Part shown: positions 12,570 through 23,607 of the stretch, piece after piece | How positions within the stretch are numbered: the first letter of the stretch is position 1 | Layout: each line of letters begins with the position of its first letter | From: Sulfurimonas sp. HSL1-2 | GTDB lineage: Bacteria > Campylobacterota > Campylobacteria > Campylobacterales > Sulfurimonadaceae | Direction of reading: 5' to 3' | NCBI RefSeq assembly: GCF_039645565.1 | Contig: NZ_CP147914.1 | Coordinates: 927,573 to 991,572, forward strand | DNA: 64,000 nucleotides | Made by a program: the position numbers and the translations under genes | Notes under the pieces: model-generated | What the model was told of the DNA's origin: nothing | Database searches by the model: none | Seen by the model: the letters and a program-made list of their open reading frames with translations, nothing else

Positions 12570-14285
12570 CTACGGTTCGTAGACGGAGACGGCTTTGCGC
12601 TCTTTGAAGCCGAAGTGGCGGTCGAGGTCGGCGTTGTGCAGCAGGACCGGCACGACGAGCAGCGACGCGGCGACGGCGGCGATGGTGCCGAAGATGAGTG
12701 CGACACCGAGCCCGCCGAAGACGGCGTCGCTGGCGAGCAGGGTCGAGGCGAGGATGATCGCCGTCGCGGTCAGGAAGATCGGCTTGGCGCGGGTGGCGGC
12801 GGCGTAGGCGAGCGCTTCCGTCTTGTGCATCCCTTTCTCGTGCATCAATGACTTGGTGAAGTCGATGAGCAGCAGCGAGTTGCGCGAGCTGATCCCGATC
12901 AGGGCGATGAAGCCGATGAGCGACGTCGCCGTCAGGAAGAAGGTGTCGGCACTGAAGAGGTCCATAATGAAGTGGCCCACGATGACCCCGATGATGGAGA
13001 GGAAGCTGCCCAGCAGGACGATGCCGCTGAGGGTGAAGCTCTTGTAGTAGACGACCATCAGCAGGAAAATGAGCACGAGCGCGGCGATGAAGGCCCCGCC
13101 CAGGTCCCGGAAGGTGTCGAGGGTGACTTCCATCTCGCCGTCCCAGTGCAGCTCGTAATGGCTCCCCGTATTCCTGTCGGTGAGAGAGAGGTCGAAGAGG
13201 CCGCTCTTCTCGATGTCATACTGCTCAGAGAGGGTATCGAGGATCATATGGCGCGCGTCCATCAGCGGGTAGACCTGGGAGACCATGTCCGTTTCGGCGA
13301 CGACGTTGACCATCTGGTGCAGGTCTTTGCTCATGATCATCGGGTTGGCGCGCGTCGGGATGATGTCGACGACCTCGGTCAGCGGCACGAGCAGGCCGTT
13401 GCTGTTCATCAGGCGCAGCCCCGAGAGCTTCTGTTCGAGGGCGAGCTTGTCCTTGCGGCTGAAGACCTTCGACTCCGGGCTCAGCGTCAGGAAGATCGGG
13501 ATCTGCTCGTTGATCGTTTCGCTGTTCTTGACGGCGATGTCCATCCCCTCGAAGGCGAGGTAGATGATGTCGTTGACCTGCTTGATGGAGAGGCCCGAAC
13601 GGGTGATCTTCGTGCTGTTGACCTTGAGGTCGAAACTGTCGTAGATCTCGTCGGCCATGACGTCGATGTCGACGAGCCCCGCCGTCTGGTGGAAGATCGC
13701 GGCGACCTTGCCGGCGAGGTCGCGAATGCCTGCGGTGTCGCTGCCGTAGATCTCGGCGACGATGGCGGCCAGGGTCGGCGGTCCTGCCGGCGGTTCGACG
13801 AACTTGATGTTCGTGCCGGCGACGACGGGCTGGCACGCCTCCTGGATCAGGGGACGCATCCGCTGAACCATCAGGTAGGAGGGCTCGCCGCGGTCATGTT
13901 TCTTGGTGAGGTTGACGACGATCTCGGAGACGTTTTCCGCGTTTTTGAAGTGGCTGCCTTTGATGAGGCCGGCGAAATCGAGCGGCGCACCCATGCCGAG
14001 GAAAGTCTCGGTGTCGAGCACCTCCTGCTCCTTCTGGATAAAGGAGGTGACGCACTGGCTTACCGCCGTCGTCTGGCGCAGGGAAGAGCCGTTGGGCAGG
14101 TCGACGTAGACGGTGAAGGTGTCATTGTTCTTGCCCGGCAGCATCTTGGCCTTGACGATCTCGGTCGGCGCGATCATCAGCACCGAGATGATGAAGGCGA
14201 CGAGGGTCACGATCAGGATCATTTTCTTCTGGCTTCTGCTCTGCAGCAGCGCCGCGATGAAGGCTTCGAACTTCTGGAAGATCAT
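12570..14285 (-). CDS. RND efflux permease, C-terminal half (separate polypeptide)
   Basis: The 571 residues correspond to the second half of an RND permease: one membrane helix (about residues 20-40), the large periplasmic porter/docking loop, then five helices. TM10-like GISSRNSLLLIDFTK has Arg where AcrB has the proton-relay Lys940. It begins at an ATG with a full AAGGAGG six bases upstream, placed inside the end of the N-half gene with an ATGA overlap. The gene therefore has its own start and is not simply the tail of a frameshifted frame. It should assemble with the N-half, the adaptor and the TolC-like protein. Confidence 0.85.
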   Translation of the reverse strand: MIFQKFEAFIAALLQSRSQKKMILIVTLVAFIISVLMIAPTEIVKAKMLPGKNNDTFTVYVDLPNGSSLRQTTAVSQCVTSFIQKEQEVLDTETFLGMGAPLDFAGLIKGSHFKNAENVSEIVVNLTKKHDRGEPSYLMVQRMRPLIQEACQPVVAGTNIKFVEPPAGPPTLAAIVAEIYGSDTAGIRDLAGKVAAIFHQTAGLVDIDVMADEIYDSFDLKVNSTKITRSGLSIKQVNDIIYLAFEGMDIAVKNSETINEQIPIFLTLSPESKVFSRKDKLALEQKLSGLRLMNSNGLLVPLTEVVDIIPTRANPMIMSKDLHQMVNVVAETDMVSQVYPLMDARHMILDTLSEQYDIEKSGLFDLSLTDRNTGSHYELHWDGEMEVTLDTFRDLGGAFIAALVLIFLLMVVYYKSFTLSGIVLLGSFLSIIGVIVGHFIMDLFSADTFFLTATSLIGFIALIGISSRNSLLLIDFTKSLMHEKGMHKTEALAYAAATRAKPIFLTATAIILASTLLASDAVFGGLGVALIFGTIAAVAASLLVVPVLLHNADLDRHFGFKERKAVSVYEP

Positions 14286-15880
14286 TTATGGCCTCCTTGG
14301 TGTTTCGCATGGTCGGGACGGTGCATCATCCGCTTGGCGAAATAGGGGGTGAAGATATAGGCGACGAAGAGCGACGCGATCAGCGCCACCGGGACGTTGG
14401 CCGGGATCGGTTTCATGAACTGCCCCATCATGCCGCCGACAAAGGCCATGGGGACCATGGTGAGAATGATGGCGAAGGTCGCGATGTTCGTCGGCGGCCC
14501 GATCTCGTCGGTCGCCTCGACGAGCAGGTCGTCTTTTGGCATGTCCGCCGACTCTACCGAGTGGAAGTGGCGGTGAATGTTCTCGATGACGATGATGGCC
14601 GCATCGACCAGGAGCCCCAGCGAGAGCAGGAACGCAAAGAGGGTGATCCGGTTGATCGTCTGCCCGGTGATATAGGCGATAAAGAGGGTGATCGCCAGGA
14701 TGGCCGGGACGGTGAAGGTAACGATGAGCGACTCGCGCCACCCCAGGACGAAGACGAGCAGGATCGCGATGATGACGATGGAGATAATGAGGTGGAAGAC
14801 CAGCTCGTTGACCGCCTCGTTGGCGCGTTCGCCGTCGTTGCGGGTGATGGAATATTTGATCCCCGCTTTTTCGAGAACCGGCTTGTAGTTTTCAAGGGCC
14901 TCTCTGACCTCGTCGGCGATGACGACGGCATTGGTGCCCTTGAGCTTGGAGATCGTCAGGGTGACCTGCTCCTGAAGCGGGGAGAAGGCGTCGTCGTCGC
15001 GGACGCTGATGCTGGCGGAACGGAAGTTCTGGATGTCGTAGCCGTCCTCGACCTTGGCGACGTCGCGCAGGTGGATCGGTGCCCCCATGTACTGGGCGAC
15101 GATGATGTCCTCGACGTCCTGGACGCTTTCGATGGCGTTCTTGACGCCCATGATGACGATCTCGCCCTCTTTGGTGCGGTTCTTGACCGCCGGGACGTTG
15201 TAGGCGAGGGCCTGCACCGCCTGGGTGATCTGCCCCAGGGAGAGGTTGTAGCCGGAGAGCTTGTTCAGGTCGACGAGGATGTTGTACTGGTGTTTATGCC
15301 CCCCTTTGAGCGCCGTGACGGCGACGTTGGGCAGGCCGTTGATGGCGTGCTGGAGATTCTTGACCGCGTCGTAGAGCTGGGTGTCGTCCATCTTGGCCGG
15401 GTCTTTGGCGTAGAAGGCGACGGAGACGATCGGGATGTCGACGTCGATATCGAGGGGCTTGATGACCGGCTGCATGGCGTTTTCGGGGAAGATGTCGGCG
15501 TTCTGCATGATCTTGTCGTAGACCTTCAGGTTCGAATCCTCTTTCTCCTCGCCGATGTAGAAGGCGGCGTTGACGATGCCGACGTTGTCCATCGCCATCC
15601 CCATGATGTGCTCGATGCCGAGCACCTCTTTCATCTTGCGCTCGAGGGGGCGGACGATGACGTTCTCGACCTCTTTGGCCGTGGCGCCGGGCAGCGCGAT
15701 GATGACAGTAGAACCGCTGACGACCATCTGGGGGTTTTCCTCGCGGGGCATGATCATCAGCGAGAGGTAGCCGATGGCGAGCAGGGTGATCCCCAGGATC
15801 ATCGTCAGGGGGCTGTTGATGAAGTAGCGGGCGAGTTTACCCGCGTAGTCCTTGGGGGTGTAGGGTTTGTGTGTCTGCAT
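14282..15880 (-). CDS. RND efflux permease, N-terminal half (separate polypeptide)
   Basis: The 532 residues match the first half of an RND pump: TM1 (about 25-45), the periplasmic PN1/PN2 loop (PREENPQMVVSGSTVIIALP and GATAKEVENVIVRPLE), then TM2-TM6. The TM4 motif reads LLVDAAIIVIEN; AcrB has LLVDDAIVVVEN, so the second proton-relay Asp is Ala here. The reading frame ends after VAYIFTPYFAKRMMH, in the cytosolic linker between TM6 and TM7. Together with the next gene the length is 1103 residues, normal for an RND monomer. Substrate class (organic compounds versus metals) cannot be told. Confidence 0.85.
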   Translation of the reverse strand: MQTHKPYTPKDYAGKLARYFINSPLTMILGITLLAIGYLSLMIMPREENPQMVVSGSTVIIALPGATAKEVENVIVRPLERKMKEVLGIEHIMGMAMDNVGIVNAAFYIGEEKEDSNLKVYDKIMQNADIFPENAMQPVIKPLDIDVDIPIVSVAFYAKDPAKMDDTQLYDAVKNLQHAINGLPNVAVTALKGGHKHQYNILVDLNKLSGYNLSLGQITQAVQALAYNVPAVKNRTKEGEIVIMGVKNAIESVQDVEDIIVAQYMGAPIHLRDVAKVEDGYDIQNFRSASISVRDDDAFSPLQEQVTLTISKLKGTNAVVIADEVREALENYKPVLEKAGIKYSITRNDGERANEAVNELVFHLIISIVIIAILLVFVLGWRESLIVTFTVPAILAITLFIAYITGQTINRITLFAFLLSLGLLVDAAIIVIENIHRHFHSVESADMPKDDLLVEATDEIGPPTNIATFAIILTMVPMAFVGGMMGQFMKPIPANVPVALIASLFVAYIFTPYFAKRMMHRPDHAKHQGGHK

Positions 15881-20846: not shown

Positions 20847-21518
20847 CTAGCGGACGGGAAAATCGAAATAGCGTTCCGGGAAGGGTTCATCTTCCAGCGT
20901 AAAGTGCCACCACTCCTCTTGAAGCGGCCGGAACCCGGCGCGGGTCATCACACTGCGCAGCAGCAGACGGTTTGCACGCTGCTGCGCCGTCACCGCCATA
21001 CTACTGGGCCACGACTCCGGCCCGAAAAAATCGAACCCCGTGCCCATGTCCAGTTCACTGCCGCTTTCACGGTCGATCAGGGTCAGGTCGACCGTGCTGC
21101 CGCGCGAATGCCCCGAACGGGCCGCGATATATCCCTCTTTGAAGAGCACGTTTTTGGCGACACGGGGATAGTAGCGCGCCTTCATTTTCGTATCACCGAG
21201 ATCCTTGGCCCAACGTACGAAGTGGTCGACGGCGCGCTGGGGACGGTAGCAGTCGAACACTTTAAGGCCGAGGCCGAAGGGGGCAAGGGCGGCGTCGGCC
21301 TTTGAGAGGGCCGCTGCCGCCGGGCGGGTCAGGTAGCAGCGGGGGGCTTCGTAGCCGTCGATCCGGGCACCGACGAAATTATCGGTCGTGAAGTAGCGCG
21401 CCTCGACGGCGATTCCGGGGGCGGTGTCATCGATCGCGACGAACGCCTCGGGCATCTCGTCCGCCCGCAGGGGGAGGGTGAGAAACGCCGCCAGGAACAG
21501 TCGGGGGAGGGGTGCCAT
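20847..21518 (-). CDS. D-Ala-D-Ala dipeptidase (VanX/DdpX family)
   Basis: The 223-residue product has a signal peptide (about residues 1-19) and the M15D zinc-peptidase motifs SGHSRGSTVDLTL (zinc His and Asp) and EEWWHFTL (catalytic Glu and zinc His), plus the family's FDCYRP. It should hydrolyse D-Ala-D-Ala in the periplasm, more likely in peptidoglycan recycling or nutrition than in vancomycin resistance. It is convergent with the Xer gene (14-base gap). Confidence 0.85.
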   Translation of the reverse strand: MAPLPRLFLAAFLTLPLRADEMPEAFVAIDDTAPGIAVEARYFTTDNFVGARIDGYEAPRCYLTRPAAAALSKADAALAPFGLGLKVFDCYRPQRAVDHFVRWAKDLGDTKMKARYYPRVAKNVLFKEGYIAARSGHSRGSTVDLTLIDRESGSELDMGTGFDFFGPESWPSSMAVTAQQRANRLLLRSVMTRAGFRPLQEEWWHFTLEDEPFPERYFDFPVR

Positions 21519-22286: not shown

Positions 22287-22478
22287 ATGTCTCAGAAAGT
22301 GCAAATCACAATCGCTGGTCTTCCGGAGGGTGCCGTCAGCGCCGAAACCATGCAGAAAAAGATCTTGAAAAACATCGTTGCCGAGATCAAGTCTGCCAAT
22401 ATGGACGGTCTGAACCCCTTTGACCTGGATATCGATGCCGGTCTGGATGTCGCAGTCGAAATGACAGCGGGCGCCTGA
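22287..22478 (+). CDS. Candidate RiPP precursor peptide
   Basis: A 63-residue acidic peptide starting MSQKVQITIAGLPEG and ending in NPFDLDIDAGLDVAVEM then TAGA. It has no signal peptide, no cysteine and a single aromatic residue, F45. The ATG follows AGAAGAGGG. It lies 40 bases upstream of an FxsB-like radical SAM/SPASM gene on the same strand, the usual place of a substrate peptide. FxsB-type enzymes link aromatic side chains to a residue two positions on, so F45-D46-L47 would be the predicted target. This is an inference from context; the peptide matches no family I know. Confidence 0.55.
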   Translation: MSQKVQITIAGLPEGAVSAETMQKKILKNIVAEIKSANMDGLNPFDLDIDAGLDVAVEMTAGA

Positions 22479-22518
22479 AAACGCTTGCTGCAGCCTCCCG
22501 CGGGAGGCGAGAGACGCC

Positions 22519-23607
22519 ATGATCGCCACGCTTGTACTCAAACTGACCGAAACGTGCAATCTCGACTGCACCTACTGCTACATGTTCAACTCCGAAGACA
22601 AGACCTATACACGTGTCCCGAAGTATCTGCCGCTCGAGACAGGTCTGCAGGTCCTTGATCATATCGGCGCCTACCTCTGGCGTCACCCCGGACACCGGAT
22701 CCGCCTGGTACTGCACGGCGGCGAACCCTCTTTGTGGCCGGAGACGTCCATGACGCCTTTCCTTGAAGCCGTCGCCGCGCTGCGCAATGAGACGCAGCGG
22801 CTCAGCCTCGGCTTTCAGACCAATCTGTACGACTACGATGCCGGGCTGCTCTCACGCGTCGCGGCGGCGGGCGGTTCCATCGGCGTGAGTCTCGACGGAC
22901 CGGGCGCCTACAACGACCGGCGGCGGGTAACAAAGGGCGGGAATGGGAGCTATGCACGGGTCGCGGAAAACCTGCGCCGCCTCGAAGCCGACGGCTTGCT
23001 GGACGCTTTCGGGGGTGTGCTCAGCGTGGCGGACCCGGAGATCCCGCCCGAAACTTACCTGGAGTGGGTCGGGACGCTGCCGAAAAAGCGGGTCAGCGTA
23101 CTCTGGCCCATCCACTATAACCACGACGCGCCGCCGCAGCATGACTACGGTGCCTGGTACGCCGAACTGTTCCGGCTCTGGAGCGCGGCGGACGACCCGT
23201 CGATCGATATCCGGATCTTCCGGGACGCCATCAAACGGATGCTGGGCTCCGCACACCACGGCGACGGCGTCGGCGGCGACCGACTCAACAGCATCGTCGT
23301 CAACACCGACGGGCAGTATGAGCGCCATGACTACCTGCGCTATTTTGCCGACGGGGCGGTGCGGACGGCGTACAACGTCCGGGAACACGGCCTGGAAACG
23401 GCCGCAAACGATGCGGTCATCCGCCGCTGCGCCGACCTGCGCGATACGCTGCCGGAGGAGTGCAGGATCTGTGAGCACTCCGAGGTGTGCGGTGGCGGGT
23501 TCGTCGCCAACCGGCTCGGGGGCGCGGGGGTCGATTTTTCACGCAAATCGGTGATGTGCGGCGACCATCGCCGTTTTTTCGACGCGGTGCGCTCCTATCT
23601 CGGGTAA
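22519..23607 (+). CDS. Radical SAM/SPASM peptide maturase, FxsB-like
   Basis: In this 362-residue enzyme the radical SAM cluster motif is C13-x3-C17-x2-C20 (TCNLDCTYCYMF), followed by HGGEPSLW for SAM binding. The C-terminal SPASM region has CRICEHSEVCGGG and a final Cys in VMCGDH. The stretch NSIVVNTDGQYERHDYLR, the following alanine-rich part and VCGGGFVANR closely mirror the FxsB family, whose members install three-residue cyclophanes in peptides. It probably modifies the peptide encoded just upstream. No transporter, protease or FxsA/FxsC-like partner is visible nearby. Confidence 0.8.
   Translation: MIATLVLKLTETCNLDCTYCYMFNSEDKTYTRVPKYLPLETGLQVLDHIGAYLWRHPGHRIRLVLHGGEPSLWPETSMTPFLEAVAALRNETQRLSLGFQTNLYDYDAGLLSRVAAAGGSIGVSLDGPGAYNDRRRVTKGGNGSYARVAENLRRLEADGLLDAFGGVLSVADPEIPPETYLEWVGTLPKKRVSVLWPIHYNHDAPPQHDYGAWYAELFRLWSAADDPSIDIRIFRDAIKRMLGSAHHGDGVGGDRLNSIVVNTDGQYERHDYLRYFADGAVRTAYNVREHGLETAANDAVIRRCADLRDTLPEECRICEHSEVCGGGFVANRLGGAGVDFSRKSVMCGDHRRFFDAVRSYLG

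Follow-up and report, generated by a model that had tools for sequence, protein, structure and literature searches.

A conserved 63-residue peptide and a radical SAM/SPASM enzyme form a candidate two-gene peptide-modification unit in Sulfurimonas sp. HSL1-2

We analysed a 64,000-nt stretch (hereafter, the window; positions 927573-991572) of the single-contig 2.52 Mb genome of Sulfurimonas sp. HSL1-2, in which a small peptide gene and the radical SAM/SPASM enzyme gene that follows it very probably constitute a precursor-maturase pair. The short precursor gene lies directly beside the maturase gene and is conserved together with it, the arrangement that the triceptide criterion calls for. The features of the locus, in window coordinates, are:

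22287..22478, + strand: precursor peptide gene (MSQKVQITIAGLPEGAVSAETMQKKILKNIVAEIKSANMDGLNPFDLDIDAGLDVAVEMTAGA), 63 aa; open reading frame, conserved in five species
22347..22391, + strand: putative leader-recognition helix TMQKKILKNIVAEIK, residues 21-35; from the alignment, shuffles and a low-confidence model
22407..22451, + strand: invariant core region GLNPFDLDIDAGLDV, residues 41-55; from the peptide alignment
22419..22427, + strand: F45-D46-L47, predicted crosslink motif (start of F-x-L-x-I); from pattern comparison and shuffles
22493..22508, + strand: palindrome GCCTCCCGCGGGAGGC between the peptide and enzyme genes; from hairpin z-scores
22519..23607, + strand: radical SAM/SPASM peptide maturase, 362 aa; from the open reading frame, Pfam/NCBIfam profiles and an AlphaFold2 model
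22555..22578, + strand: CX3CX2C radical SAM cluster motif, C13/C17/C20; from the sequence
23461..23559, + strand: auxiliary-cluster cysteines C315, C318, C324 and C347 (CX2CX5C...C); invariant in the enzyme alignment

The peptide reading frame opens with an ATG at 22287, 5 nt downstream of a GAGGG Shine-Dalgarno-like site, and its stop codon ends at 22478. The first-pass annotation described a small, acidic, Cys-free peptide with one aromatic residue, and this description holds: the 63 residues include nine acidic and five basic residues and no Cys, and F45 is the sole F/W/Y/H. Arg is also missing, and the C-terminal end is EMTAGA. Diverged pairs among the five species give a dN of 0.04-0.10 against a dS of 0.6-1.5 (dN/dS about 0.06-0.09), which identifies the peptide as a real coding gene. 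Its dN is about half that of the enzyme in the same genome pairs; purifying selection on the peptide is stronger than on the enzyme. The peptide alignment shows no differences among the five species across residues 35-55, which include NPFDLDIDAGLDV, and conservation spans the whole peptide, N-terminus included. The AlphaFold2 model of the peptide (mean pLDDT 50) contains only one helix, residues 19-36. The window peptide did not match Trypco1 (PF19493), and plasmid records gave no match to it either. Profile searches of the PDB with the peptides gave weak ubiquitin-type and other matches that we judged to be due to chance.

The peptide and enzyme genes are separated by 40 bp. Hairpin z-scores for this spacer are -0.7 in the window and -3.6 and -2.2 in relatives, and the spacers of the sibling genomes and of the most diverged family genome (G025, below) also form stems although their sequences differ (three unrelated sequence forms). 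The spacer hairpin may set the ratio of peptide to enzyme.

The enzyme, present as one copy in the genome, matches Pfam Radical_SAM (PF04055; E=2.6e-12) and, with its CX3CX2C motif, has the defining features of the radical SAM superfamily. It had been credited with both the radical SAM and the SPASM cysteine sets; C13/C17/C20 are indeed in place, whereas of the canonical seven-Cys SPASM set only C315/C318/C324/C347 occur and the upstream half is missing. These two groups are the only clade-conserved Cys. The aligned ChlB sequence has the same four C-terminal Cys, and one auxiliary cluster is therefore expected. Among solved structures, ChlB is the closest by sequence (E 1.8e-34), and ChlB with its precursor's leader bound is the top fold match (E 1.3e-21, TM 0.80) of the AlphaFold2 enzyme model (pLDDT 77, pTM 0.82), ahead of anaerobic sulfatase maturases. 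Among NCBIfam profiles the best match is YhhB (NF041707; E 3.7e-66, 223.5 bits against a cut-off of 445), followed by FxsB (TIGR04269; E 6.5e-64, 216 bits against a cut-off of 370).

The earlier label "FxsB-like" is accurate at the level of the superfamily, and both C-terminal motifs cited for it, VVNTDGQYER and CEHSEVCGGG, are present. We rejected assignment to FxsB proper, given the score far under the FxsB cut-off and the position of the enzyme in the tree. In a maximum-likelihood tree the window enzyme groups in a ten-sequence clade with 100/100 support, separate from the FxsB, YhhB and XyeB sequences sampled; the tree does not fix how the deeper branches are ordered. On these grounds we place the enzyme in an unnamed sister clade within the FxsB superfamily.

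The co-conservation of peptide and enzyme predicted at first reading is borne out. The enzyme is present in 5/200 genomes sampled from the same GTDB family: its own, G010 (98% identity), G036 (83%), G027 (83%) and G025 (72%), the last belonging to a different genus and the other four to a single genus. A 299-genome draw from the order yielded no further carriers. The peptide lies just upstream of the enzyme in all five carriers, and a peptide profile run against the family genomes recovered the same five and one marginal match (E 0.008), which lies within a gene and contains a stop; peptide and enzyme are thus always found together. The four genomes of one genus share their flanking genes. The G025 locus and the window locus, on the other hand, have only the peptide and enzyme genes in common; the neighbours in G025 include a SUF-like operon, recognised by reading the sequences, and an AMMECR1-SnoaL open reading frame. 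Such wholly different surroundings indicate that the peptide and enzyme genes are a two-gene unit that was moved or kept as such. A 2OG-Fe dioxygenase gene (PF10014; L014 5033-6103, - strand), a possible tailoring enzyme, occurs downstream of the G025 copy. We did not retain it as part of the system, since a lipoprotein-like gene intervenes and the window and the other loci tested contain no homologue. Viral contigs and phage records contained no close relative, and the relatives in plasmid records (about 32% identity or less) all fall outside the clade.

In the window the pair is flanked by cytochrome c, YbhB/PEBP protein, DUF2238 and GGDEF genes, none of them an evident maturation gene. As the first-pass annotation stated, no transporter or protease gene adjoins the pair, and this is the case both in the window and in the G025 context. 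An RND efflux operon located 4-10 kb upstream has no evident connection with the pair. Its pump gene (12570-15880, - strand) is divided into two overlapping open reading frames, an N half of 532 aa and a C half of 571 aa, that meet at an ATGA-type overlap with a Shine-Dalgarno-like site. Three sibling genomes keep the split too, at 95-99% identity, so it is natural rather than a sequencing frameshift. A VanX-like D-Ala-D-Ala dipeptidase of the Peptidase_M15 family (228 bits against 320 for the VanX model) is encoded at 20847-21518 (- strand); no further van genes were noted nearby.

Outside the family, the clade comprises sequences from a Proteobacteria MAG (L002), Comamonadaceae (L004), the genus Polaromonas (L006, L023) and Streptomyces canus (L003). 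These are 38-46% identical to the window enzyme and extend the clade to Pseudomonadota and Streptomyces, where it is rare (2/87 genomes of the genus Polaromonas, 1/247 of the genus Streptomyces). The S. canus copy (L003 1-11314) is apparently flanked by transposase-like open reading frames, as read from the sequences, which suggests mobility. In each distant member a small open reading frame precedes the enzyme gene, with 45-81 bp between them. In pairwise comparisons over the whole peptide, the window peptide resembles these precursors more than it does shuffles (p 0.0000-0.0085); profile-profile comparison gave an E of only 0.059, and BLASTP of the window peptide against the Polaromonas peptide gave no alignment. 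The likeness resides in a helix, TMQKKILKNIVAEIK in the window, that has a [KR]-I-[LM] pattern followed by hydrophobic positions, and in a P-x-x-[VIL]-x-[IV]-x-[FA]-G-L strand. The L002 peptide matches Trypco1/CU044_2847 (E 1e-4; 23.3 bits against a Pfam cut-off of 24.6, and 23.4 against an NCBIfam cut-off of 23). The Trypco1 domain sits beside trypsin-like peptidases in conflict systems, and FxSxx peptides with radical SAM-SPASM enzymes have been tied to related conflict systems (PMC7159879). The proposal of a minimal system fits the window, L002 and L003, near whose enzymes there is no aKG-HExxH hydroxylase gene; it does not fit the Polaromonas and Comamonadaceae members, in which such a gene (TIGR04267) lies directly downstream of the enzyme (L004 6959-8413, L006 7013-8422).

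The modified residue was proposed to be F45, on the understanding that this position stays aromatic. F45 is invariant in the five species, but in an ungapped strand alignment it faces Asp in L002, Ala in L004 and L006, and Ile in L003; the Phe of FGL/FTL aligns with A51, and the aromatic residue of the distant relatives lies six residues later. Conservation of F45 thus holds within the five species and not positionally beyond them. The F-x-L tripeptide, in contrast, is present in every clade precursor (the Polaromonas-type precursor ends in F-G-L-K-W), and F-x-L-x-I is the only three-residue pattern common to the C-terminal parts of the window, L002 and L003 peptides. Shuffled sequences shared any such triple pattern in 2% of trials, and none of 5000 yielded one led by an aromatic. 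This sharing makes F-x-L the most parsimonious choice of target motif, in which Leu would be the partner at i+2. Known relatives join an aromatic residue at i to the C-beta of residue i+2; the partners reported are Asn, Asp, Arg, Ser and Ala, and Leu is not listed (PMC11002830). Set against that source, and leaving subscription literature aside, a bond between Phe and Leu would be novel. The sequences EFGV and EFGL in L035 and L039 show FGL or FGV to be natural in ordinary, unmodified Trypco1 domains, so F-x-L in the relatives may be structural. We lean slightly towards a crosslink on F45, and Leu47 is a plausible, tentative choice as its partner.

The reading that best accounts for these observations, and that we consider evenly balanced between right and wrong, is a two-gene peptide-modification module in which the enzyme would bind the leader and close an F45-D46-L47 cyclophane, with a product kept in the cell or processed by general means. 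The enzyme itself would hold the central helix of the peptide (about residues 19-36), by analogy with ChlB and the ChlA leader, without help from a dedicated recognition domain. A 5'-deoxyadenosyl radical produced at the radical SAM cluster would remove a beta-hydrogen from the residue two positions past the single aromatic; the resulting carbon radical would add to the F45 ring to give the three-residue cyclophane, with a 2-Da loss. The product would probably stay intracellular as a modified mini-protein, or be processed by a general protease.

Other outcomes deserve weight. A modification that makes no Phe-Leu ring, whether F45 is joined to D46 or D48 or the Asp/Leu-rich core is epimerised or dehydrogenated, is on the unlikely side but a serious contender: the clade is deep and unnamed, Leu is missing from the published partners, the Asp-rich core is invariant and the aromatic of the relatives is displaced. 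Yet YhhB, FxsB, ChlB and XyeB, the closest families whose chemistry is known, all form cyclophanes, and every precursor keeps an aromatic two residues before a Leu. We doubt, with more conviction, the specific proposal of a new triceptide subfamily in which a Phe-Leu (F-x-L) tie is installed in a Trypco1-derived mini-protein used uncleaved inside the cell.

The fate of the product bears on a further alternative, in which the peptide would be an antimicrobial or signalling RiPP that is secreted by means of an exporter and a protease encoded at other loci of the genome. Many such RiPPs are exported, as at the XyeB locus with its peptidase-ABC transporter, but an exporter or protease is adjacent in neither genomic context and the near-invariant core is unlike an arms-race product, and we regard secretion as improbable. 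The near-invariance of the whole peptide and the lack of an adjacent exporter or protease favour a function inside the cell over that of an arms-race toxin; the unusual conservation likewise points to a conserved cellular role and away from an antibiotic one. The same conservation, extending to the N-terminus, and the Trypco1 match of the L002 peptide would suit a Trypco1-like mini-protein that partners the enzyme in a structural or regulatory capacity and is not its substrate. We give this very little credence: the enzyme family acts on peptides encoded just upstream, and the gene order and leader helix fit substrate pairs such as YhhA/YhhB. If the two-gene cyclophane module is real, the reach of radical SAM cyclophane chemistry would widen to include an unfunctionalised aliphatic partner, engineering would gain one of the smallest complete modules for crosslinking peptides, and a family of modified peptides would be connected with a small domain known from bacterial conflict systems.

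Comparison with known systems places the pair near, and outside, several of them. The window pair belongs to the same superfamily as FxsA/FxsB (TIGR04269; MscB) and shares with it a Phe-based cyclophane, predicted in the window; unlike that system, the enzyme is below the cut-off, the peptide lacks the FxSxx-COOH end, and no VMAP-type conflict genes were seen near the pair. The L002 peptide fits the P-x-x-[VIL]-x-[IV]-x-[FA]-G-L strand of Trypco1/CU044_2847 (PF19493, NF041216), of which the window peptide keeps P-F-D-L-D-I-D-A-G-L, but the latter has no profile match, is much shorter than the 98-position domain and has no trypsin-like partner. YhhA/YhhB (NF041707) supplies the best NCBIfam match, a precursor gene directly upstream and an R-V-L pattern in the YhhA leader; the window enzyme, however, reaches half of the cut-off score and falls in a separate clade, and YhhB joins Tyr/His to Arg whereas the window peptide has F-D-L and lacks Tyr/His-x-Arg motifs. 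ChlA/ChlB (PDB 9gm3, 9gmc) is a fused radical SAM and aKG-HExxH triceptide system. ChlB is fused to its hydroxylase and the window enzyme stands alone; ChlA carries YDA and HHRHNRS motifs, in contrast to the one Phe and no Tyr, His or Trp of the window peptide. ChlB nevertheless provides the closest solved fold (TM 0.80, 25% identity) with the same cluster cysteines, and the R-V-L and K-L-L helices of the YhhA and ChlA precursors resemble the leader helix of the window peptide. ChlB was crystallised with its precursor leader, and the window enzyme may bind its own peptide in a like manner.
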